DNA from: Planomonospora sp. ID82291
GTDB taxonomy: Bacteria; Actinomycetota; Actinomycetes; Streptosporangiales; Streptosporangiaceae
Reading direction: 5' to 3'
NCBI RefSeq assembly: GCF_015711645.1
Contig: NZ_JABTEX010000001.1
Location: 744,001-808,000, forward strand
DNA length: 64,000 nucleotides
Shown here: positions 29-58,946 of the stretch, piece by piece
Layout of the letters: each line of letters opens with the position of its first letter
Numbering within the stretch: the first letter of the stretch is position 1
Program-made: the position numbers and the translations under genes
The notes under the pieces: model-generated
Database searches by the model: none
What the model saw: only the letters and a program-made list of their open reading frames with translations
What the model was told of the DNA's origin: nothing

Positions 29-988
29 TCAGCCGAACCGGTAGACCGTGCCGGAGGTGAACTCCTCGCCGGGGCGCAGCACCGTGGAGGGGAACTCCGG
101 CCGGTTCGGGGAGTCGGGGAAGTGCTGGGTCTCCAGGCACAGGCCCGCGTGCCTGCCGTAGTCCGTCTCCACGCCGTCGAGCATGTTGCCGGAGTAGAAC
201 TGCACGCCCGGCTCGGTGGTGGTGACCCGCATGACACGGCCGCTGACGGGCTCGCGGACCTCGATCTCGCCGCGCAGCACGTAGCAGTGGTCGTAGCCGC
301 CGTCCAGCGCCGGGTCGTCGATCCGCTCGCCGATCGCGCGCGGCGCCGTGAAGTCGAACGGGGTGCCCGCCACCGGGGCGAGCTCGCCGGTCGGGATCTT
401 GGTGGAGTCGACGGGCAGGTAGTGGTCGGCGTCCATCCGGACGACGTGCCCGAGCACGTCGCCGGAACCGGCGCCCGCGAGGTTGAAGTAGGAGTGGTTG
501 GTCAGGTTGAGCACGGTCGGCGCGTCGGTGGTCGCGCGGTAGTCCAGCACCAGGGCGTCGTCGGTCAGCGTGTAGGTGACGCTCGCGGTCAGCGTGCCCG
601 GGTAGCCCTCCTCGCCGTCCGGGCTCACGTACTCCAGCGTGATGGCCGACCGCGAGACGTCGGCGACCCGCCAGACCCGCGAGGAGAACCCGCCCGGCCC
701 GCCGTGCAGGCTGTTGGGCCCGTTGTTGAGCGGCAGCTCGTAGGCGGCCCCGTCCAGGGTGAACCGCCCGCCCGCGATGCGGTTGCCGTACCGCCCGACG
801 ACCGCGCCGAAGTAGCGGCTGCGCGTCAGGTAGTCGTCCAGGGTGTCGCAGCCGAGCACCACGTCGACCCCGGAGACCTCCAGGGACTGCACGACCGCGC
901 CGTAGCTGAGCACCGCGGCGCGCAGCCGGCCGCTGGACAGGACGTGCCGCTCGACGGGCTCTCCCGACGGCATGGTTCCGAAGTTCAC
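29..988 (-). CDS. galM: aldose 1-epimerase (mutarotase)
   Basis: A 319-residue cytoplasmic aldose 1-epimerase that should interconvert alpha and beta anomers of hexoses. The family signatures are visible: GNRIAGGRF near residue 70, NNGPNSLHGG near 90 with the catalytic His, and TNHSYFNLAG near 165 with the second His. Length is normal. The start is a GTG preceded by a GAGGAAAGG ribosome site. It lies 14 bases downstream of the LacI-type repressor gene on the same strand, so the two are probably co-transcribed and part of one sugar-utilisation unit with the divergent sugar-binding lipoprotein. The sugar itself cannot be read from the sequence. Confidence 0.93.
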   Translation of the reverse strand: MNFGTMPSGEPVERHVLSSGRLRAAVLSYGAVVQSLEVSGVDVVLGCDTLDDYLTRSRYFGAVVGRYGNRIAGGRFTLDGAAYELPLNNGPNSLHGGPGGFSSRVWRVADVSRSAITLEYVSPDGEEGYPGTLTASVTYTLTDDALVLDYRATTDAPTVLNLTNHSYFNLAGAGSGDVLGHVVRMDADHYLPVDSTKIPTGELAPVAGTPFDFTAPRAIGERIDDPALDGGYDHCYVLRGEIEVREPVSGRVMRVTTTEPGVQFYSGNMLDGVETDYGRHAGLCLETQHFPDSPNRPEFPSTVLRPGEEFTSGTVYRFG

Positions 989-1002
989 ACGTGCGCCTTT
1001 CC

Positions 1003-1986
1003 TCAGGAGCCGGCCGGTTCCGGAACCGGTCCGGTGGACTCCCGGACGACCAGACCGGTCGCCAGGGTGGCCAGGGTGGCGGTGCCGCCCTCGGCCACCG
1101 ACTGGAGCAGCAGGTCCACGGCCATCCGCCCGGCGGCGGCCGTGGGCATGGCCACGGTGGTGAGCCTGGGCCGGTTCAGCCGGCCGGAGACGATGTCGTC
1201 CACCCCGATGACACTGACGTCGCCGGGGACCCGCAGGCCCCGCTCGTGGAGCCCTTCGATCAGCCCCATGGCGACCAGGTCATTGTAGGCGAGCACGCCG
1301 GTCGCCCCGGAGGCGGTCACCTCCGGGGCGACCGCGAGACCGCCCTGCTCGGTGGGGACGTTGGGACCGAGGTAGACCAGGTCGACCCCGTCCACCGCCG
1401 CGGCGGCCTCCCGCATCCGCTTGCTCGTCCACGACCCGCTCGGCCCGGAGACGAGGGCGACCCTGCGGTGACCCAGCCCGGCCAGGTGCTCGATCGCCAG
1501 CCGGGCGCCCTGGCCGATGTCCATGAGCACCGTCGGCATGCCCTTGACCTCGCGGTTCACCACGACGAACGGCACGTCGGCGTGGAGCCGCTCGATGGCC
1601 CGGTTCGACAGCCGCGGGCTGCACAGCAGCACCCCGTCGACCTGCTTGGCGAGGGCCTTGATCAGCTCCTCCTCCACCTGCGGGTCCTCGTCGGTGTCGG
1701 CCACGAAGACGTGGTAGTCGCGCGTCCTGGCGTGCGCCTGGGCCGCCTTGATCAGCGGCGGGAAGAACGGGTTGGAGATGTCGGCGACGATCAGCCCGAG
1801 GTTGTGCGTCCGGCCGGTGGTCAGCGCGCGGGCCGCCCGGTTCGGGCGGTAGCCGAGGTCCTCGGCGACGGCGAGCACGCGGTTGCGCGTCTCGGCGTTG
1901 ACCAGATGGGGCGCGGAGAAGGTCCGGGAGACCGTGGAGACGTGCACGCCCGACGCCTGCGCCACGTCCCTGATCGTCGCTGCCAC
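1003..1986 (-). CDS. LacI-family transcriptional repressor
   Basis: A 327-residue LacI/GalR repressor. The N-terminal helix-turn-helix is ATIRDVAQASGVHVSTVSRT at residues 3-22, followed by the hinge region and a periplasmic-binding-protein-like sugar domain with motifs such as LGLIVADISNPFFPPL. I chose the GTG at 1986 over a longer open frame because AAGGAG sits just upstream and the protein then begins directly at the DNA-binding domain. It is divergent from an ABC sugar-binding protein and upstream of galM, and the intergenic region carries three CGGTTGC half-sites, so autoregulation plus control of the binding protein is likely. Confidence 0.93.
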   Translation of the reverse strand: MAATIRDVAQASGVHVSTVSRTFSAPHLVNAETRNRVLAVAEDLGYRPNRAARALTTGRTHNLGLIVADISNPFFPPLIKAAQAHARTRDYHVFVADTDEDPQVEEELIKALAKQVDGVLLCSPRLSNRAIERLHADVPFVVVNREVKGMPTVLMDIGQGARLAIEHLAGLGHRRVALVSGPSGSWTSKRMREAAAAVDGVDLVYLGPNVPTEQGGLAVAPEVTASGATGVLAYNDLVAMGLIEGLHERGLRVPGDVSVIGVDDIVSGRLNRPRLTTVAMPTAAAGRMAVDLLLQSVAEGGTATLATLATGLVVRESTGPVPEPAGS

Positions 1987-2048
1987 GCTGCTCCTTAGCC
2001 GGGCTCCTCGGCCGGGGGCCACCGGGCTTGGCAGCAGGGTAGTACAAA

Positions 2049-2216
2049 CGGTTGCATCGCTGTCAACGCCGCGCATCAGGGCCTTCGGCGGGATGGGAAC
2101 GGTTGCCCTCTCCGCGGCCCGCGCAGCCCTGTCGAGCCCCAGGCCAGAGGAGGTTTATCAAATTGCTCTCTTGACGTCGCGCACCGATGCCCGCAATGTT
2201 TCACGCAACCGGTTGC
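2049..2216. promoter_or_regulatory. LacI-type operator cluster in a 427-base divergent intergenic region
   Basis: The gap 1987-2413 separates the lacI-like gene from the sugar-binding gene. It holds CGGTTGC three times in the same orientation, at 2049-2055, 2100-2106 and 2210-2216. The last is part of a perfect 12-base palindrome GCAACCGGTTGC at 2205-2216, of the kind LacI-family repressors bind. Two sites lie close to the repressor gene and the palindrome lies about 200 bases before the transporter gene, which would allow looping or control of two promoters. No reading frame in the gap looks coding. Confidence 0.6.
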
Positions 2217-2413
2217 ATGTCCTCGGCGTCGAGCGGAAGGAGCCGGCCCGCCGATGGCGGCCGATACGGCGGATCTCAGGATACGCCGCCGTCGGAGTCG
2301 CGCGGCCCGGACGCCCCGCCCGCCGATCTCCCGCCCGCCGACCGCACCGGCCGTCGTCGCGTCGGGACGTATCCTTCGCCGAGAGGTACGTCGGGTTGAG
2401 AGGTTCGAGAGCA

Positions 2414-3733
2414 ATGACCACACGCTCCAGGCGCCTGGCGGTCCTCGCCACCGCGCTCGTGCTCGGGGCCGGCACCGCCGCCTGCGGGGCCGGGGATTCC
2501 GGCGTCGGCCCCGACGGCAAGACCGTCATCACCTTCTGGGACGACAACGGCGGTCCCGCCCGCACCCCGGTGTGGCAGCGCGTCATCGCCGAGTTCCAGC
2601 GGGCCAACCCGGCCATCGAGGTCAGGTACGTCGGCATCCCGATCTCCCAGGCGCAGCAGAAGTACGACGCCGCGATCGCCGGCGGCGAGCTGCCCGACGT
2701 GGGCGGCGTCACCAGCGCGATGCTCTCCCACCTGGTCGCGCAGGAGGCGCTGGAGCCGGTCGACGACCGCATCGCGGACGGCGCGCTGAACGGCAGGCTG
2801 AACGAGCAGGTGCTCAACACGGTGAAGTCGACCGTGGCGGACGGCAGGGTCTACATGGTGCCGATGTCCACCAACATGGGCGTGCTGTGGTACCGGAAGG
2901 ACTGGTTCTCCACGGCGGGCCTGCAGGTCCCGCAGAACTGGGACGACTTCTACACCGCGGCCGAGACGCTGACCCGCGCGGACAAGAAGCGCTACGGCTA
3001 CACCATCCGGGGCGGCGCGGGCTCCATCGCGCAGCTGCTGGAGGTGCTGTACGCCCAGTCCGGCATCACCCAGGTCTTCGACGCCGCGGGCCGGGCCACC
3101 GTCAACGACCCGCGGAACGTGACGGCGCTGGAGAAGTACGCCGCCCTCTACAACAACGCCACCCCCGAGGACGACTACGACAACGACTACGTGAAGATGG
3201 TCGCCCAGTTCGACGGCGGCACCATCGGGATGATGCAGCACAACCTGGGCTCCTACAACGACCACGTCAAGACGCTCGGCGAGGACAGGGTCGCGGCCAT
3301 GGCCATGCCGAAGTCCGGGAACGGCGTGCGCACGATCCTGTCGAACCCGGTCTACGGCATCGGCCTGTTCGCCGGCGGCGAGAAGCAGGACGCCGCCTTC
3401 GCCTTCGCCGAGTTCGTCGCCTCCAAGGCGATGAACAGCCACTGGGCGGAGAAGACCGGCGTGCTGCCGGCCAACACCGAGGTCAACGGCGAGCGCTGGA
3501 TCAAGAAGCTGCAGCACGTCGACATGGCGGTCAAGGTGCTCAACGACCCGGCGACCAAGGTCGTGCAGATGCCGTACCACCTGCCGGAGTTCAACACGAT
3601 CACCAAGACCGACGCGGAGCCGCAGTTCCAGAAGGTCCTGCTCGGCGAGCTGTCCGCCAAGGAGTTCCTGGACGAGATGGCGGCCAAGCTGACCGCGGCC
3701 CAGGCCGCCTACACACAGCGCAACGGCGGCTGA
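2414..3733 (+). CDS. ABC transporter sugar-binding lipoprotein (orphan)
   Basis: A 439-residue extracellular solute-binding protein of the sugar type. A basic N-terminus (MTTRSRRL), a hydrophobic stretch and Cys24 in the context GTAAC indicate a lipoprotein signal. The mature part begins with a typical strand (VITFWDDNGG) and has the family segment PMSTNMGVLWYRKDWF. The ATG at 2414 was chosen because it gives the signal peptide directly; longer frames upstream would bury it. The permease and ATPase genes that normally follow are missing, since the next gene is a helicase, so the membrane part must be encoded elsewhere. Regulation by the divergent LacI protein is likely. Confidence 0.93.
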   Translation: MTTRSRRLAVLATALVLGAGTAACGAGDSGVGPDGKTVITFWDDNGGPARTPVWQRVIAEFQRANPAIEVRYVGIPISQAQQKYDAAIAGGELPDVGGVTSAMLSHLVAQEALEPVDDRIADGALNGRLNEQVLNTVKSTVADGRVYMVPMSTNMGVLWYRKDWFSTAGLQVPQNWDDFYTAAETLTRADKKRYGYTIRGGAGSIAQLLEVLYAQSGITQVFDAAGRATVNDPRNVTALEKYAALYNNATPEDDYDNDYVKMVAQFDGGTIGMMQHNLGSYNDHVKTLGEDRVAAMAMPKSGNGVRTILSNPVYGIGLFAGGEKQDAAFAFAEFVASKAMNSHWAEKTGVLPANTEVNGERWIKKLQHVDMAVKVLNDPATKVVQMPYHLPEFNTITKTDAEPQFQKVLLGELSAKEFLDEMAAKLTAAQAAYTQRNGG

Positions 3734-3740
3734 CCCGCCC

Positions 3741-3765
3741 GCCGGGTCCCTCACACGGACCCGGC
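3741..3765 (+). terminator. hairpin after the sugar-binding gene
   Basis: A perfect nine-base stem, GCCGGGTCC paired with GGACCCGGC, with a seven-base loop, starts eight bases after the stop codon. No T-run follows, as is usual in such G+C-rich genomes. The right arm belongs to a 19-base direct repeat (3754-3772 and 3788-3806). Confidence 0.5.
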
Positions 3766-3955
3766 CGCTCGTCCCCCGGGCCCCGCGCACGGACCCGGCC
3801 GCTCGTGCCCCCGCGCCGCGACCGGCCGGGGGCGGGAGCCGTACGGCGCCGGCGCCTCGGTTCGAACCTTTCGTCAGGATCGGCACACCTCAGCGTCACC
3901 GATCGATTACGGTTCGACCGTCCCGCCGTACCCGACCTCTCCCCGGAGGAGCCCC

Positions 3956-5425
3956 GTGCCCGCACCGACGATCGAGCAGGAGGCCGCCGTCGCCGCCTTC
4001 CGCGGCGGCGAGAACCTCACGCTGCAGGCCGGAGCGGGGACGGGCAAGACCACCACGCTCACGATGCTCGCCGCCGCCACCCCGCGGCGCGGGCTGTACC
4101 TGGCCTTCAACAAGGGCATCGCCGTGGCCGCCGCCCGGGTCTTCCCGCCGACCGTGCAGTGCCGGACCACGCACTCGCTCGCCTACCGGGCCGTGGGCCA
4201 CCGCTACCGGGAGCGGATGGCGAACGCCGTCCGGGTCCCGAGCTGGCAGGTGGGCGCCCGTCTCGGCATCGCCCCGAACCTGGCGGTGCGCATCGGCGAA
4301 CGCACGATCACCGGCAGGACCGCGTCCATGGCCGCCCTGCAGGCGGTCAGCCGGTTCTGCCACTCCGCGGCCCCGGAGATCACCGCCGGTCACGTCCCCC
4401 GGCTGCGCGGCCTGGAGGCCGACCCCCTGCACGCCGAACTGGCCGAGCTCGTCCTGCCCTACGCCCGCAGGGCCTGGGCCGACCTGCAGAACCCGTACGA
4501 GGGCGCCGTGCGTTTCGCCCACGACCACTACCTGAAGATGTGGGCGCTGACCGAGCCCCGGATCGAGGCCGACTTCCTCCTGCTCGACGAGGCCCAGGAC
4601 ACCAACCCCGCGGTCGAGCGGCTCTTCACCCGCCAGCGGGGGCACGCCCAGCTCGTCATGGTCGGCGACTCCGCCCAGGCGATCTACGGCTGGCGGGGCG
4701 CCCGCGACGTCATGGCCGGTTTCGACGGCGCCCGGCTGACCCTCTCGCGGTCCTTCCGGTTCGGCCCGGCGCTGGCCGGGGAGGCCAACCGCTGGCTGGC
4801 CCTGGTCGACGCCCCCATCCGGTTGAGCGGGACCCCGGAGGTCCCCACCGAGGTGGCCGCGGTGGAGCGCCCGGACGCGGTCCTGTGCCGGACCAACCTG
4901 GGCGCGATGACCGAGGTCATGGCCCTGCTGCGGACGGGCCGGCGGGTCGGCCTGGTCGGCGGCGGGGAGAGCCTGGCCTCGCTGGCCAGGGCCGCCCGCG
5001 ACCTCAGGGCCGGCCGGCGCACCTGGCACCCGGAGCTGACCCTCTTCGAGACCTGGGGCGAGCTGCAGGACTACGCGCAGTGCGACCCGGCCGGCCGCGA
5101 CCTGCGGCCCCTGGTCGACCTGGTCGACGAGCACGGCCCCGACGTCATCCTGGACGCGCTCGCCCGGCTGTCCGGCGAGGCCGAGGCCGAGGTCGTCGTC
5201 TCCACCGCGCACAAGGCCAAGGGCCGCGAGTGGGCGCGGGTGCGCGTCAGCGGGGACTTCCGGGCCGTCGAGCCCGAGATCGCGGAGGGCGACGACGGCG
5301 AGCGCCGCCAGGGCCGGGTCGACGGCGACGAGGCGCGGCTGGCCTACGTCGCGGTGACCCGTGCCCGCCACCGCCTGGACCTCGGCGGCCTGTCCTGGAT
5401 CGACCGGTACGCCCCGACCTCCTGA
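3956..5425 (+). CDS. UvrD/Rep-like superfamily 1 DNA helicase, compact form
   Basis: A 489-residue ATP-dependent helicase with all SF1A motifs in order: motif I AGAGTGKT (residues 25-32), motif II DEAQD (211-215), motif III VGDSAQAIYGWRGA, motif IV SRSFRFGP, motif V STAHKAKGREW and motif VI YVAVTRAR near the C-terminus. The start is a GTG with CGGAGGA upstream. It is much shorter than UvrD or PcrA (over 700 residues) because the 1B and 2B insertions are reduced, which resembles the helicase core of FBH1-type proteins. That likeness is a family impression only. It stands alone between convergent or unrelated genes, so its exact repair role is unknown. Confidence 0.88.
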   Translation: MPAPTIEQEAAVAAFRGGENLTLQAGAGTGKTTTLTMLAAATPRRGLYLAFNKGIAVAAARVFPPTVQCRTTHSLAYRAVGHRYRERMANAVRVPSWQVGARLGIAPNLAVRIGERTITGRTASMAALQAVSRFCHSAAPEITAGHVPRLRGLEADPLHAELAELVLPYARRAWADLQNPYEGAVRFAHDHYLKMWALTEPRIEADFLLLDEAQDTNPAVERLFTRQRGHAQLVMVGDSAQAIYGWRGARDVMAGFDGARLTLSRSFRFGPALAGEANRWLALVDAPIRLSGTPEVPTEVAAVERPDAVLCRTNLGAMTEVMALLRTGRRVGLVGGGESLASLARAARDLRAGRRTWHPELTLFETWGELQDYAQCDPAGRDLRPLVDLVDEHGPDVILDALARLSGEAEAEVVVSTAHKAKGREWARVRVSGDFRAVEPEIAEGDDGERRQGRVDGDEARLAYVAVTRARHRLDLGGLSWIDRYAPTS

Positions 5426-20018: not shown

Positions 20019-20062
20019 AGCGCCCGGCACGCTCCAGTCGAGAACAAAACGCCCCTTGAGAC

Positions 20063-20104
20063 GGCGTGGTTGTGGACGACCAGGCGGTCGTCCACAACCA
20101 CGCC
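20063..20104. terminator. 19-bp perfect hairpin terminator
   Basis: A 19-base perfect stem (20063-20081 with 20086-20104) and a four-base loop AGGC lie between two convergent genes. Read on the minus strand the stem is followed by a stretch containing GTTTTG, so it is best suited to end the accessory operon reading leftwards. It can also serve the hydratase gene. Confidence 0.8.
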
Positions 20105-20113
20105 ATCGGGAAA

Positions 20114-21196
20114 TCAGGCGCGTGCTGCTGTGCTCGGTCCGATCGGTGAGGCCATGAGAGCCGCCTGTAGTTCGGGATCAGTGAAACTGAGAGCGGCGTC
20201 GAAGCGGTATTGGAGGTTGCTGACCAGGCGGGCGATAGTGTTGCCGCAGCCGCCGCTGTTCAGGTAGACACGCATCCACTGTTCGCCGATGTCGAAGGAG
20301 AGCTGTTCGCCCACGTGGAGGTCGACGGCTTCGACCTCGGCGATGTCGGAGGATGCGGACAGTCGAGGTGTGCCCCACAGCCGGAACGGGTCGCGGGAGG
20401 AGAACAGCTCCTCGACGAAGGCTTCAAGGTCTGGGATGGACCTCGAGAAACGGATACCGATGGGGCCTCCCTTCAGCTGCGCTCCGATGTCGTTCCCCGG
20501 TCCGTCGAGAGGAGTCCATGAGATGGATTTCCGCTCGCACAGGAGCACGAGGCTCCGATAGCGGTCCACGATGTTCTGAACGAACTGGAAGTGGAGCTCA
20601 GGCGAGGTTCCCGACACGGCGAATCGCCCCTTCCGGTTCACACCTTCTCGGACGGTCCCGAACTCATCATCTGCCACGACCACTTCGACGGCGTCGTACG
20701 CGGCGGCAGACCGCAGGCCCTTGGCATGGAGGTACTCGTCGAGTAGCGCGGCACCGCCACCGGAAGCCTGAAGCTTGAGGTCGTCCATCTCGGAGGAGGA
20801 ATCGCGCAGAAGCTTGCTGCCATCGAACCTGACGCGGGTCTTGCGTCGTTGCGCGCCGGGCCAGGGCTCGCGTAGGTGTTCTGATGGGAGCCACAACCAG
20901 TCGAGGTCTCTCCTGGCGCTGACCTGCTTGTTGAGGTAGGCGGCGGCAACGCCGGTGGGCATGTCGGTGTGGAAGCTCCAGAACCGGCCATCGAGCTGAT
21001 CCACCCAGAAGTCCCCATCGGCGGTCTGGAGCCTGAAGAGATAGGCGTCGTCCGTTGCGACCAGACGGCCTTGCTCCATGAAGGATTCGAGGAACGCGAC
21101 GGGGTCGCCTTGGGGGTGCACCTCAAGTACGAACGTCTTCGTAGGCGAGCTCGGACTCATGGAGAGATGCTCGGCCATCTGTGCACGGCTGCTCAT
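20114..21196 (-). CDS. uncharacterised protein, partner of a nuclease-like gene
   Basis: A 360-residue soluble protein that I do not recognise. There is no signal peptide or membrane segment. It is rich in aromatic and acidic residues, for example DGDFWVDQLDGRFWSFHTDM near residue 60, and has several predicted beta-strand-like stretches (YDAVEVVVADDE). Its start codon overlaps the stop of the upstream nuclease-like gene (ATGA), so the two are translationally coupled. Base composition is less G+C-rich than the flanking genes and codon use is more relaxed, which suggests horizontal acquisition. A strong terminator follows. It could be a specificity, inhibitor or sensor subunit of the nuclease; no function is assigned. 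Confidence 0.75.
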   Translation of the reverse strand: MSSRAQMAEHLSMSPSSPTKTFVLEVHPQGDPVAFLESFMEQGRLVATDDAYLFRLQTADGDFWVDQLDGRFWSFHTDMPTGVAAAYLNKQVSARRDLDWLWLPSEHLREPWPGAQRRKTRVRFDGSKLLRDSSSEMDDLKLQASGGGAALLDEYLHAKGLRSAAAYDAVEVVVADDEFGTVREGVNRKGRFAVSGTSPELHFQFVQNIVDRYRSLVLLCERKSISWTPLDGPGNDIGAQLKGGPIGIRFSRSIPDLEAFVEELFSSRDPFRLWGTPRLSASSDIAEVEAVDLHVGEQLSFDIGEQWMRVYLNSGGCGNTIARLVSNLQYRFDAALSFTDPELQAALMASPIGPSTAARA

Positions 21197-22152
21197 GGCG
21201 TCCCCTCGGGCTGCTCGTTCTTGCTGTCGTCCGTCCCCTCGTCTGCTTTGTCCAGCTCATCGAGAAGGTCTGTCTGACCAGGTATAATAACCGACCCTCT
21301 GCGCCTGCGCCTAGATTGACTTGACCGTGCGAGCGCCTGATACGCCTGGGTCCGTCCTCTCGGGTCATTCGACTCAGGGGTCTTGAGCAGGGAGACCCAG
21401 CCATCCCGGTTGGGCGGAGGTCCGTGAAACCTGAAAGTCTGCGGGTTGTCATCGGCGATATGGCGGGCTGCTTCGCCCACCTTCTGCTTCAAGGCGGTCT
21501 GGGCTCTCCGACCGAACAGGGCGAAATGCCTGACCGACTGCTCGGTCAGAGCAGCCAGCGTGATTTCGGGAATGCTCCGGGTGAGCGCTGCGACGAGCGC
21601 TCCGAGGACGTGGGGTTCGACGACGCTCACGTCCGAGTCCATGTCGAAGGGGATGAGCCGTGAGGGTGGAGCCACCAACTGGACGGGTGTCGTGAAGATC
21701 CTCTGAAGCCGTTCGCTGGGGATGTCGGTCTCCAGCGTGATCTTCTGATCGTATACCGCGAGGATCGGGAAAGTGACGCCTGCCGTGGAGAGGCCCAGCC
21801 GTACCCGGCCCACGTGGTCGCCGAGGCAGGCGTAGACGACGTCCAGTGAGGGGGTGACCCGCTGGAACAGATCGATGCGGGCCTGGCGTATCACGGTGGC
21901 GGCGTCCAGCACGGCATATCTGGCGCACTGCGGTTCTTCGATGTTCCCGCCGCACTTGGACTCGATGGCCAGGATGTGGCCGGTGTTCCCGTTGGCGAGG
22001 ATGACGTCGATGACCACGTTTCCCGCCGGTGTGGTGACCGGGGCCTCGAGTCCGGCCACTCGGTACCCGTGTTCCGCGAGCACGGCGGGATTGATGCCGT
22101 CGGGAGTGGCGAGATCGATCATCGCGTTGATCGGTATGAGGCGCCTCTCCAA
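21193..22152 (-). CDS. PD-(D/E)XK nuclease-like protein
   Basis: A 319-residue protein. Asp49 (VVIDV), Glu64-Ser-Lys66 (LAIESKCG) and Gln75-to-Tyr79 (QCARY) reproduce the D, ExK and QxxxY signature of the RecB/Cas4 branch of PD-(D/E)XK nucleases. The middle and C-terminal parts are not recognisable. The tail is first Arg-rich (SQSRRRRRGS) and then acidic and presumably disordered. The start is TTG at 22152 with AGGGGAG upstream; the next ATG (22122) is possible but would still keep the motif. It is the first gene of a two-gene operon of foreign composition. Function as a restriction or defence nuclease is inferred from the motif and setting only. Confidence 0.75.
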   Translation of the reverse strand: MERRLIPINAMIDLATPDGINPAVLAEHGYRVAGLEAPVTTPAGNVVIDVILANGNTGHILAIESKCGGNIEEPQCARYAVLDAATVIRQARIDLFQRVTPSLDVVYACLGDHVGRVRLGLSTAGVTFPILAVYDQKITLETDIPSERLQRIFTTPVQLVAPPSRLIPFDMDSDVSVVEPHVLGALVAALTRSIPEITLAALTEQSVRHFALFGRRAQTALKQKVGEAARHIADDNPQTFRFHGPPPNRDGWVSLLKTPESNDPRGRTQAYQALARSSQSRRRRRGSVIIPGQTDLLDELDKADEGTDDSKNEQPEGTP

Positions 22153-22194: not shown

Positions 22195-22227
22195 CTGATC
22201 GCTACCGCTGCCCGCGATATCGATCAG
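22195..22227. promoter_or_regulatory. inverted repeat upstream of the nuclease-like operon
   Basis: CTGATCG (22195-22201) and CGATCAG (22221-22227) form a seven-base inverted repeat with a 19-base spacer, 43-75 bases before the TTG start. It could be an operator of the two-gene operon. Confidence 0.3.
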
Positions 22228-22315: not shown

Positions 22316-22746
22316 ATGGTGATCACCGATGAGGAGTTGGCTCTGACGGCGGCGCAGGCGGGAGCCACCGTCGTGCAGGCCATGTACGGCGCGCCGCTGA
22401 CGCGTCTGGGGAAGTCTGCGGGTGACTTCGCCACGTCCGCGGACATCGAGGCGGAGAAGGCCATCCTCGACGTCATCCGCACGGCTCGACCGGACGATGC
22501 CGTGACGGCCGAGGAGAGCGGAAGCACCGGCCCGGACGGCGCGGCGTCACCGACGGCCACCTACGGGACAGTGTGCACTTCGCCGCCGGGATCGCACTGT
22601 GCCTGGCCGCCGGATGCCTGGTAACCGGTATCGACGGTCAACCGTTGCACACCGGTGCGGGCGGACTCGTCGTGGCGGCCGACCGGGAGACGCACACCGC
22701 GTTGCTGGATCTCATCGACGACCGGTTCCCCCGCTTCGCCCACTGA
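22316..22746 (+). pseudogene. inositol monophosphatase family protein, internally deleted
   Basis: The first about 80 codons read as the N-terminus of an inositol monophosphatase (TDEELALTAAQAGATVV, then TAEESGSTGPDGAA). The frame then shifts, and the C-terminal part continues in another frame from about 22569 (VHFAAGIALCLAAGCLVTG to the TGA at 22744). The middle of the protein, including the metal-binding WLVDPLDGT-type motif, is absent. In the intact family that region spans roughly 80-100 residues. This is an ancient or recent deletion and the remnant cannot be catalytic. Confidence 0.8.
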
Positions 22747-23438: not shown

Positions 23439-23690
23439 ATGAAGATCATGACCTACTCCGAATCCCGCGCGAAGTACGCCGAGACCCTCAACTCCGTCGT
23501 CGACGACCGCGAAGAGGTGGTCATCACGCGTGCCGGCCACGACCCGGTGGTCATCGTCGCGCTCGACGACTACGAGTCGCTGAAGGAGACCGCCTACCTG
23601 CTCCGGAGCCCGGAGAACGCCCGCCGCCTGCTGGCCTCCATCGACCGGCTCGAGCACGGCGGCGGAACGGAACGGCCCCTCGCGGAATGA
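23439..23690 (+). CDS. yefM: YefM-family antitoxin
   Basis: An 83-residue Phd/YefM antitoxin. The N-terminal DNA-binding part is MKIMTYSESRAKYAETLNSV and the dimer core is VVITRAGHDPVVIVALDDYESL. The C-terminal tail (NARRLLASIDRLEHG) would cover the toxin. I took the ATG at 23439, eight bases after GGAGG, rather than a GTG at 23430. The stop overlaps the toxin start (ATGA). It represses its own operon through the TGTACA-type sites upstream. Confidence 0.92.
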   Translation: MKIMTYSESRAKYAETLNSVVDDREEVVITRAGHDPVVIVALDDYESLKETAYLLRSPENARRLLASIDRLEHGGGTERPLAE

Positions 23691-23947
23691 AGATCATGTG
23701 GGACGAGGGCGCCTGGGACGACTACGTCTGGTGGCAGACCGAGGACCGCAAGATCCTCAAGCGGATCAACACCCTCATCAGGGACATCCAGCGCAACGGC
23801 AACGAAGGGATCGGCAAGCCCGAGCCGCTGAAGCACGGGTTCCACGGCTACTGGTCGCGCCGGATCACCGATGAGCACCGGCTCGTCTACAAGGTGGTCG
23901 AGGGCGAGGTCCGCATCGCCGCCTGTCGATACCACTACAGCCCTTGA
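23687..23947 (+). CDS. yoeB: YoeB-family mRNA interferase toxin
   Basis: An 86-residue RelE-superfamily ribosome-dependent endoribonuclease. Catalytic residues fall at the E. coli YoeB positions: Glu46 (PEPLKH), Arg65 (DEHRLVY), His83 and Tyr84 (RYHYSP). It is full length and looks intact. The start overlaps the antitoxin stop by four bases. With yefM it forms a type II toxin-antitoxin pair in the accessory island. Confidence 0.93.
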   Translation: MKIMWDEGAWDDYVWWQTEDRKILKRINTLIRDIQRNGNEGIGKPEPLKHGFHGYWSRRITDEHRLVYKVVEGEVRIAACRYHYSP

Positions 23948-56378: not shown

Positions 56379-56842
56379 CGGTTCCGGTGCCTGACCGCGC
56401 GGGCCATCTCCCGCTTGGCCTGCTTCTCGGCCAGCGTCTGCCGCTTGTCCCAGTCCTTCTTGCCGCGCGCCAGGCCCAGTTCGACCTTGGCCCGGCCGTC
56501 CTTGAAGTAGAGGGAGAGCGGCACCAGGGTCAGGCCGCCCTCCTTCGTCTTGGCGACCAGCTTGTCGATCTCCTTGCGGTGCAGCAGCAGCTTGCGGGTG
56601 CGCCGCGCCGCGTGGTTGGTCCACGTCCCCATGGTGTACTCCGGGATGTGGATGTTGATCAGCCACGCCTCGCCGTCCTTGACGGTGGCGTATCCGTCCA
56701 GGAGGGAGGCGCGGCCCAGGCGCAGCGACTTCACTTCGGTGCCCTGCAGCACGAGGCCGGCCTCGTAGGTGTCCTCGATGTGGTAGTCGTGCCGGGCACG
56801 CTTGTTCTGGGCGATGACCTTCCGCCCGGTCTCACGTGGCAT
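56375..56842 (-). CDS. smpB: SsrA-binding protein
   Basis: A 155-residue SmpB. Conserved blocks: [20 protein letters not shown] at the start, then [18 protein letters not shown], and the basic C-terminal tail [19 protein letters not shown]. It binds tmRNA and delivers it to stalled ribosomes. It follows ftsX by 22 bases and overlaps the PBP-like gene. ssrA lies 2.4 kb further on the same strand, as in many actinobacteria. Confidence 0.97.
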
Positions 56843-56864
56843 GCCTGGAGCCTACCGGGATGCC

Positions 56865-57773
56865 TTACACACGGAGGTAACGGCGGAGCGTGACGAAGGA
56901 GGCGAAGACACAGATGAGCACGCCGAAGACCATCGTGACGCTGATCGACGAGGCGACCGTCTCCCAGGAGAGCTGGGCGGTGCCGCCGAGGTAGAGCTGC
57001 ACGCTGTCGAAGAGGAACACCTTGCTGACGATCAGCAGGACCGCCGCGATCACGCCGCCGATCAGGCCCGCGATCACGCCCTCCATCACGAACGGGAGCT
57101 GTATGTAGAGGTTCGAGGCGCCGACCAGCCGCATGATGCCCGTCTCGCGGCGGCGGTTGTAGGCCGACAGCCGGACGGTGTTGCCGATCAGCAGGGTGGC
57201 CGCGAAGACCAGGGTGATCGCGATCGTCAGCGCCGCCCAGCGGAGCTTCTCCAGCAGGCCGAAGAACTTCTCCAGGAGCTCCTTCTGGTTGATCACGTTG
57301 GAGACCCCGGGGGCGCCCTGCAGCCCTTCGATCACCGCGCCGTAGGTGTCGGGGTCCTTGAGCTTGACCCGGAAGGACTCGGGCATGTCCTCGACCTGGA
57401 TCGCCGTGATCATCACGGGGTTGTCGGCGTACTGCGCCTTGAAGTTCTCATAGGCCTTGGCGGCGTCCTCGAACTCGACGCGCTCGACCTGCGGCATGGC
57501 CTCGATCGTCGCCTTCAGCGCCGCCTGCTCCTGCGCGTCGACGCCGCCGCTGCCCTTGCACTGGGGGAAGGGGTCGTTCTTCTTGCACAGGAAGACCGAG
57601 ACCTCGACCTTGTCGTACCAGGAGTCCTTCATGCCGGAGACCAGGGAGTTGATCATCAGACCGACGCCCAGCAGCGCCATGCCGATCGCCACGGTCACGA
57701 TGACCGCGATGGTCATCGTGAGGTTGCGGCGGAGGCCGATCCAGACCTCGGAGAAGATGAAGTTTGCCCGCAT
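56865..57773 (-). CDS. ftsX: cell-division permease FtsX
   Basis: A 302-residue membrane protein with four helices. After the first helix (TMTIAVIVTVAIGMALLGVGL) comes an extracellular domain containing CKKNDPFPQCKG, whose two Cys would form a disulfide as in mycobacterial FtsX. Helices 2-4 follow (LVFAATLLIGN, MEGVIAGLIGGVIAAVLLIV, MVFGVLICVFASFV). With FtsE it activates peptidoglycan hydrolases of the RipC type. The start ATG is 57 bases after ftsE. Confidence 0.95.
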   Translation of the reverse strand: MRANFIFSEVWIGLRRNLTMTIAVIVTVAIGMALLGVGLMINSLVSGMKDSWYDKVEVSVFLCKKNDPFPQCKGSGGVDAQEQAALKATIEAMPQVERVEFEDAAKAYENFKAQYADNPVMITAIQVEDMPESFRVKLKDPDTYGAVIEGLQGAPGVSNVINQKELLEKFFGLLEKLRWAALTIAITLVFAATLLIGNTVRLSAYNRRRETGIMRLVGASNLYIQLPFVMEGVIAGLIGGVIAAVLLIVSKVFLFDSVQLYLGGTAQLSWETVASSISVTMVFGVLICVFASFVTLRRYLRV

Positions 57774-57830
57774 GCTCTTCCTGTCGCTGTCGCTTTCCGG
57801 GTCCTGGGACGTCCCGGGACGTCCTGGGGC

Positions 57831-58520
57831 TCAGTACGCCTGGCCGTACACGCCACGCGACTGGTCACGGACGATCTTGCCGTCCTCCAGTTCCACCACG
57901 CGTTTGCGCATGGAGTCGACGATGGCCGCGTCGTGCGTGGCCATGACGACCGTGGTGCCCGTCCGGTTGATCCGGTCGAGGACCTTCATGATGCCGATGC
58001 TCGTCGCCGGGTCGATGTTCCCGGTCGGCTCGTCGGCCAGGAGGATCATCGGCCGGTTGACGAACGCGCGGGCCATCGCGACCCGCTGCTGCTCACCGCC
58101 GGACAGCTCGTCGGGCATCCGGTGGGCCTTGCCCTCCAGGCCGACGAGCTCGACGACCTCGGGCACGACCTTGCGGATGAACCGCCGCGGCTTGCCGATG
58201 ACCTCCAGCGCGAACGCGACGTTCTCGTACACGTTCTTGTTCGGCAGGAGCCGGAAGTCCTGGAAGACGCAGCCGATCCGGCGGCGCAGGTGCGGGACCT
58301 TGAAGTTCGACAGCCGGGCAAGATCCTTGCCGGCGACGTGGATCGCCCCGGAGTTGGGGCGCTCCTCCTTCAGGATCAGTCGGAGGAAAGTCGACTTCCC
58401 GGACCCCGAGGGGCCGACGAGGAACACGAACTCACCCTTGTCGACGTCGACGCTGACGTGGTCCAACGCGGGGCGGTTCTGGTTCGCGTAGACCTTGGTG
58501 ACATTATCAAAATGGATCAC
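57831..58520 (-). CDS. ftsE: cell-division ATPase FtsE
   Basis: A 229-residue ABC ATPase. Walker [10 protein letters not shown] near residue 35, the ABC signature [20 protein letters not shown], Walker B LLADEPTG and the switch His in ATHDAAIV are present. The GTG at 58520 is chosen because it gives 229 residues, the exact length of M. tuberculosis FtsE, and the first strand ([11 protein letters not shown]); a longer frame to 58562 exists. With FtsX it forms the FtsEX division complex. A small plus-strand gene lies between it and prfB. Confidence 0.95.
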
Positions 58521-58754
58521 GGGCGCATCACGGCATGCCAGTCTAGGGGTTAGGACGGTCACGGTAGTGGCAGAGGTCCACTTTCCGCCTCTCGCCGGCC
58601 GGGGGGCGCCGATCTTTACCTGGATCGACGTTCCGGTTGGCCGGAGCCCAGTCTAGGGGGAAGACCGGCATGGAAGGTCCATAACGGAAACAAAACGATT
58701 CGGCGCCCGGTAACGACCGCATAAAGTGGTTCCGACTCCGAAGGGGAGGATCCC

Positions 58755-58946
58755 ATGAGCTGTGACGATCTGGTCTGCGCGCGGTGCGCCCATCCCGTCG
58801 CCGAGGGCCGCTGCCCCCTGTGCCGGGCCAACCGCGACCGCATGCACCAGGCGGGCCTGGGCGGGATGACTCCGGCGCTGGTCTCGCTGGCGCTGATCGT
58901 CCTGTTCTTCCTGACCCTGGCGCTGGAGCATCTCGCGAAGGGCTGA
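58755..58946 (+). CDS. small zinc-ribbon membrane protein
   Basis: A 63-residue protein. A four-Cys zinc-ribbon pattern, CARCAHPVAEGRCPLC (CxxC-x8-CxxC), is followed by a transmembrane helix (LVSLALIVLFFLTLALEHL). AAGGGGAGG precedes the ATG, with good spacing. It reads opposite to prfB and ftsE and is probably expressed from its own promoter in 58521-58754. Function unknown; a metal-sensing or protein-docking role in the membrane is possible. Confidence 0.75.
   Translation: MSCDDLVCARCAHPVAEGRCPLCRANRDRMHQAGLGGMTPALVSLALIVLFFLTLALEHLAKG

Follow-up and report, generated by a model that had tools for sequence, protein, structure and literature searches.

A predicted nuclease and its conserved partner form a probable undescribed defence module in Planomonospora sp. 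ID82291 and in scattered bacteria and archaea

Two overlapping genes, here called A and B, lie in a 64,000-nt stretch of Planomonospora sp. ID82291 (contig NZ_JABTEX010000001.1, positions 744,001-808,000 of the forward strand; hereafter the window, in which positions are counted) and probably make up a two-component nuclease module directed against viruses or plasmids. Judging from its sequence motif, A is very probably a PD-(D/E)XK nuclease, and B is its conserved partner. Because the pair travels together across scattered bacteria and archaea and often has known defence genes as neighbours, we regard it as probably an undescribed defence module; no published description of the A-B pair was found in the literature searched, which was covered mostly at abstract level and without supplementary tables, most subscription papers or bioRxiv preprints. 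The two genes and the predicted catalytic codons are placed as follows.

21193..22152, minus strand: gene A, encoding 319 aa from a TTG start that GGGGAG precedes by 5 bases; predicted PD-(D/E)XK nuclease with a predicted winged helix
20114..21196, minus strand: gene B, 360 aa, ATG start, overlapping A by ATGA; conserved partner, matches phrog_22469
21916..22008, minus strand: stretch of A that encodes its predicted catalytic motif (D49 at 22006-22008, Y79 at 21916-21918)

Both genes are open reading frames of the minus strand (A from 22152 to 21193, B from 21196 to 20114), and their overlap in ATGA and the TTG start of A were confirmed as a preliminary description of this DNA had given them. 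That description had also proposed a search for conserved co-occurrence, and A adjoins B in 29 of 32 loci from different genomes. Counted by row, with profiles of both proteins, A stands beside B in 30 of 33, where one row is a duplicate record, gene starts were set mechanically and certain loci are closely related to one another. In each of the 30 pairs the two genes share a strand, with a gap of at most 13 bp (27 overlap), in the order A-B in 6 rows and B-A in 24. Since the loci had been found through B, a reverse search was run with a profile of 13 archaeal A proteins in the 243 genomes sampled from the order of a Haladaptatus match, which we take to be Halobacteriales. B is present in 18 of these genomes; the A profile matched 17, all among the 18 and all with the genes adjacent, and the eighteenth has a partial B match of 117 profile positions.

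Neither protein matched Pfam, NCBIfam or PADLOC at E ≤ 10, and the assignment of A draws instead on an alignment of 29 homologues that adjoin B. In the window's protein D49, E64-S-K66 and Q75-xxx-Y79 are present, as first described. Position 49 is D in 28 of the 29 rows and E in one; position 64, read from the alignment by eye, has E in 16 rows and D in the other 13; Q75 is kept in 28 and Y79 in 25. The preliminary description would have abandoned a nuclease had D49, E64 and K66 varied among homologues, and we observed acidic residues at 49 and 64 in 29 of 29 and K66 in 28, so that the signature D...(D/E)xK is conserved across the family with locus L059 as the exception at K66. The A of L059 (8723-9808, minus strand) is divergent, with K66, Q75 and Y79 lost beside a full-length B, and is possibly an inactive nuclease retained with B.

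Profile comparison points in the same direction. Using hhalign, the 29 A proteins aligned with four HSDR_N_2 proteins over 60 columns, motif residue against motif residue (E 1.5e-4, probability 52%), and 13 archaeal A proteins aligned with the same four at E 1.8e-5 (probability 78%); the window's clade aligned with archaeal A at E 5.4e-8 over 219 columns, and the negative control, A against B, gave E 0.45. Only one of the 29 members matches the Pfam family HSDR_N_2 (PF13588) itself, at E 0.058. HSDR_N_2 or HsdR N-terminal nucleases have a role in restriction. A has D, E-x-K and Q-xxx-Y in identical order (D-ExK-QxxxY) and differs from them in having no helicase or methyltransferase part, in its predicted winged helix and in being paired with B. 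Among the 17 Pfam families matched by the 29 members at E ≤ 0.1, RecB and Cas4 models were absent and, since QxxxY also occurs in HSDR_N_2, the motif does not single out RecB/Cas4. Of the RecB/Cas4-like signature originally proposed, the PD-(D/E)XK part is thus supported by conservation and by hhalign, and the narrower placement in the RecB/Cas4 branch stays tentative.

An AlphaFold model of A, built from five sequences only, had a mean predicted local distance difference test score (pLDDT) of 45.7, falling below 50 in the motif region; the motif falls on predicted strands (30-36, 46-54 and 60-67) and the helix after them (73-80), an order that fits, at low confidence, the alpha-beta-beta-beta-alpha-beta core of PD-(D/E)XK enzymes, in which strands 2 and 3 bear the motif. 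Residues 168-263 are better predicted and resemble a winged helix (best Z 8.4), and A is accordingly predicted from this model to carry one at about these positions. Searches of PDB sequences with A alone and with the A and B family profiles returned nothing below E 0.03 and nothing covering the motif region. As bait, B was the better of the two: tblastn with A in plasmid records and a scan of genome contigs with A gave no match. A single-sequence match of A in 198 relatives (59 residues, E 1e-4, the only other match being A itself) was dropped, its frame being judged non-coding.

B had been described as a partner with no recognisable domain, and it matches only an unnamed family with no assigned function, phrog_22469 (E 1.9e-32, residues 63-335). 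Sixteen residues are invariant in 30 B rows (K20, E25, R71, D99, W102, H202, Y213, E221, G275, D292, H294, C317, N319, R323, N327 and D333), and mean column identity is 33% for B (30 rows) versus 24% for A (29 rows). The model of B (pLDDT 64.7) comprises two beta-alpha-beta4-alpha units with an uncertain middle. Its fold matches are weak, with TBP rows at Z 5.8-5.9 and RnlA at 5.9, which do not stand out from the remaining rows (up to 7.8); KA1, appendage, GGDEF and other candidate relatives from VIA-align were set aside, all being below Z 8 with scores too even to name a relative. Foldseek returned 888 matches in BFVD, mostly of low template modelling (TM) score and including TBP/TFIID-like, RnlA-like and AdoMetDC-like viral proteins; the top row was the unnamed H9YRB2 (probability 1.00, TM 0.57 by target). 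Pfam DUF7770 was found on 3 of 30 B members, at best 1.2e-4. These models weakly suggest that B consists of two TBP-like repeats. The TBP-like fold binds nucleic acid elsewhere, and B may likewise bind or sense nucleic acid.

The genomic setting provides a further clue regarding function. Enrichment in defence islands was another check proposed at the outset, and defence genes lie near at least 15 of the 31 loci besides the window, a count that should not be taken as a rate or as a complete census because the neighbours were picked by eye. Those tested individually came from 13 loci, and some are up to about 5 kb from the pair. PADLOC recognised DISARM genes directly beside the pair in L026, where a DrmD gene, overlapping with the end of A, is followed by DrmMI, and in L067, where DrmA and DrmB are divergent from the pair; these are the only loci with DISARM recognised. 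Other PADLOC matches were HmaB (L023), a PLD-helicase (L052), an HKD-SNF2 helicase with a type IIG-like methyltransferase (L058), JetA, JetB and JetC of Wadjet, divergent from the pair (L068), HsdM and HsdR (L064), a BrxHII-like helicase (L065), a DrmMI/IIG-like methyltransferase (L057), OLD (L021) and PDC-M33A (L060). Pfam added OLD-type domains in L010, on a Methanocaldococcus jannaschii plasmid, and GmrSD in L066, and L053 and L061 carry genes that fall in the same helicase cluster as those of L023, L052 and L058. The proteins at L026 18921-20000, L021 12488-13426 and L064 6387-8339 had no PADLOC match at the limits used. In L010 an EVE-domain gene and an OLD-type gene stand ahead of the pair (377-3974, plus strand); EVE proteins have been noted near DUF499-type systems (PMC7641849).

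A bulk comparison was made with genes of at least 120 aa, the five nearest per locus, found with our own simple gene caller. At E ≤ 1e-10, 119 neighbour genes at 25 loci gave matches to 261 PADLOC families, and a control set of 140 genes gave matches to 63; the controls came from 20 regions, each in a different genome, and 18 of these genomes are among the 25. DrmD and related helicase models matched up to 6 neighbour genes each versus at most 4 control genes per family, among the matches listed. Controls were counted by family and not by locus. Many PADLOC models are redundant and the matches listed cover the first 25 families of each scan, so the contrast between neighbours and controls is qualitative and does not amount to a test. 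Six neighbour clusters are common to at least three loci, of which four are defence genes of the helicase-methyltransferase type or stand in such an operon and only one is replication-like.

Relatives of B occur in actinobacteria, on Bacillaceae plasmids, in haloarchaea and on the M. jannaschii plasmid, and their identity to the window's B across archaea and bacteria is 21-28%. The nearest relative found, in Nonomuraea candida, has the order A-B and identities of 68% and 76%. In 72,556 plasmid records, tblastn of B gave four good matches (M. jannaschii pDSM2661_1, Lysinibacillus irui, Halobacterium hubeiense and Metabacillus) and two partial ones (Salinibaculum and Natronosalvus, about 30% of B covered); the partial matches were kept out of the 33 rows, as was the L044 fragment (G868), which by its coordinates is probably from the same Natronosalvus record. 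A scan of genome contigs with a B alignment gave four loci. In sampled genomes the distribution is rare and patchy: besides the 18 of 243 above, B was present in 5 of 297 genomes of its own order (single sequence, E ≤ 0.001), in 2 of 396 of the phylum sample and in 6 of 250 from the family to which the Micromonospora matches belong (two truncated), all of these counts including the own and bait genomes.

Overall, these observations are best explained by a module in which A would be the effector, a DNA nuclease of the PD-(D/E)XK type (D/ExK/QxxxY) whose core is predicted from motif and profile, with a C-terminal winged helix, drawn from the better part of the model, that may contact DNA. B, with its weak fold matches, would be the partner that recognises or gates. 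The overlapping genes would hold A and B at a fixed ratio, and the two proteins could form one complex able on its own to cleave the DNA of invaders, or DNA whose state is abnormal. The pair apparently spreads as a cassette by horizontal transfer and, in its repeated position next to DISARM, Hma-type, Wadjet, type I, type IIG-like or type IV systems, may serve as an auxiliary or back-up nuclease. A more ambitious version, in which a TBP-fold B senses a nucleic-acid structure that invaders produce (such as a distorted duplex, or a DNA-RNA hybrid where replication or transcription begins) and in turn licenses the nuclease A, making the pair a new class of prokaryotic immunity common to archaea and bacteria and an interchangeable back-up nuclease in DISARM, Hma, Wadjet and restriction loci, is in our estimation rather doubtful.

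Known systems offer partial parallels. Auxiliary stand-alone PD-(D/E)XK restriction endonucleases near BREX and DUF499/Hma systems have been proposed as back-up effectors (PMC12839542); they resemble A in being stand-alone nuclease genes adjoining helicase-methyltransferase defence loci. In the portion of that account consulted no B-like paired protein is named, whereas here the pair is the unit, and A-B also occurs near DISARM, Wadjet, type I or GmrSD systems or near no recognised system. Hachiman HamAB likewise has two genes, for an effector nuclease and a sensor helicase (PMC12278908), and has the effector/sensor layout proposed here for A and B; its sensor is a helicase, in contrast to B, which matches no Pfam family. 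Some HEPN domains of RNase LS carry a fused TBP-like domain, and in RNase HIII such a domain binds DNA-RNA hybrids (PMC3710099). The weak fold matches of B include chains of RnlA and TBP; B would differ from the RnlA/LsoA (RNase LS) defence toxins by its two such repeats, and it differs from them in having no HEPN found by sequence and in its separate nuclease partner.

The pair is a small and testable candidate defence module, invisible to Pfam, NCBIfam and PADLOC 2023, with hosts as distant as Nonomuraea, Lysinibacillus and M. jannaschii. In a two-gene nuclease module, effector and sensor can be mutated separately. The repeated siting of this pair next to DISARM and Hma-type loci bears on which nucleases act there or back them up under phage inhibition, and a B that truly recognises foreign nucleic acid through a TBP-like fold would be an unusual sensor.

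Several observations weigh against a defence module of this kind, beyond the selection of neighbours by eye and the family-wise counting of controls. No defence system was recognised near the pair in 16 of the 31 other loci. The flanks of the window's own pair, covered by Pfam with no PADLOC scan, showed no defence system besides YefM-YoeB and no ATPase, methylase or helicase genes of the Hma kind; the pair may thus often stand alone. B was absent at the limits used from 50,697 phage records, and from viral contigs in a pattern-based scan, although phrog_22469 is a viral-protein family by construction. On the side of A, the L059 protein has lost its motif residues, the AlphaFold model shows no confident nuclease core, and the window's own six-sequence clade has no direct match to HSDR_N_2 (E 0.41), so the link between A and HSDR_N_2 runs through the archaeal relatives. 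Pairing is also imperfect, with B lacking A in L023 (B intact) and in L069 and L070 (B truncated), and the A profile used in the reverse search was built from A beside B, so a very different unpaired A could be missed. Distances among A and among B proteins correlate (r 0.977, n = 28 excluding L059, a value that none of 2,000 permutations reached), but shared descent confounds this and alone could give it. A helicase gene and a DUF1156-type methylase gene, the latter with the HmaB match, lie 0.2 kb away from the intact B of L023 (9289-10344, minus strand); our guess is that the helicase protein may supply a nuclease there.

Could the pair instead be a toxin-antitoxin system, with A a DNA-cleaving toxin and B its protein antidote, kept by addiction on plasmids and islands? 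The overlapping genes of a compact cassette, the good matches on four plasmids, the YefM-YoeB neighbour here and the L023 B without A, which would fit a spare antitoxin, are all compatible with this. B, however, is both larger and better conserved than A (33% versus 24%), with invariant charged and polar residues unlike those of small antitoxins; gene order is variable, and L059 retains B beside an A lacking K66 and Q75. On balance we consider this explanation unlikely. Still less probable is a role for A and B as accessory subunits that work only together with the cores of DISARM, Hma or type I-like helicase-methyltransferase systems and are here stranded or acting in trans. The overlap with DrmD in L026, the adjacent DrmAB in L067 and the Hma-type genes in L023, L052 and L053 would suit such a role, but the neighbouring systems vary by locus (DISARM, Hma-type, Wadjet, type I, GmrSD), those of L067 and L068 are divergent from the pair, and none was recognised in the stretch examined of 16 of the 31 other loci or in the window. 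In PADLOC, neither the Drm models nor the Hma core models (HmaA helicase, HmaB methylase) matched A or B at E ≤ 10, and Hma genes are neighbours in some relatives.

Maintenance or recombination of mobile elements (replication, repair or junction processing) in place of defence seems to us highly improbable. PD-(D/E)XK enzymes often serve replication, repair and junction-processing roles, there are plasmid copies, transposase and integrase genes lie beside the pair in L011, and Orc/Cdc6-like genes, named by eye, lie beside it in L053, L058 and L061. Against this, many copies of the pair are on contigs of more than 2 Mb, and the shared neighbour clusters described above are four of six defence-type with one of six replication-like. 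We therefore continue to favour a two-component defence nuclease.

The surroundings of the pair in the window suggest how it came to be there, and two further elements flank the genes.

20060..20107, no strand: hairpin between the convergent ends of B and an enoyl-CoA hydratase gene
22195..22227, no strand: imperfect inverted repeat, 43-75 bp upstream of A

The base composition of A and B had been called unlike that of the flanks, and GC content is indeed 0.635 over the 2,039 bp of the pair versus 0.736 for the window, a value as low being found in 0.65% of 1,240 sliding windows of the same size; third-position GC is 0.78 in A and B versus 0.96-0.98 in five other window genes. The pair is flanked on the left by the enoyl-CoA hydratase gene and on the right by pieces of an inositol monophosphatase gene, YefM-YoeB and a nitronate monooxygenase gene (Pfam). 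The toxin-antitoxin pair and gene remnants previously noted next to the module could be identified by Pfam as the genes for the YefM antitoxin and YoeB toxin (23439-23947, plus strand; 1.3e-22 and 4e-37) and as two inositol monophosphatase fragments (22316-22746, plus strand). The fragments are two pieces of one gene, matching the N-terminal and C-terminal profile ends only, the second at 25.1 bits, slightly below the curated cut-off of 27, and the gene is decayed. The YefM-YoeB genes have a GC content below that of the measured host genes.

In two relatives (G019 and G001) the genes for the hydratase and the monooxygenase converge, their aligned parts lying 715 and 746 bp apart versus 4,094 bp here, and no match to A or B was found in that interval. 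The comparison uses 2 of 11 relatives' loci, those with both flank genes inside the fetched stretch. Because the interval there is about 0.7 kb and lacks A and B, the simplest reading is that the module and adjoining material are an insertion in this genome.

The hairpin at 20060-20107 starts 6 bp beyond the end of B and has arms of 22 nt with one mismatch (19 bp perfect) around a 4-nt loop. It had been termed a perfect terminator; the hairpin is real, and its role as a terminator is unproven, there being no T-run directly behind it and a terminator consensus scan having found as its sole match a weak neighbouring 5-pair stem (1 found versus a shuffle mean of 1.0). A two-way terminator is possible. 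The inverted repeat reported upstream of A is present at 22195-22208 and 22214-22227, with arms of 14 nt that are 86% complementary; it is a possible operator, short enough to arise by chance. Another lower-GC stretch of the window (56501-58939, 0.66 or less) is probably ordinary, its open reading frames resembling smpB, ftsX and ftsE, as named by eye.

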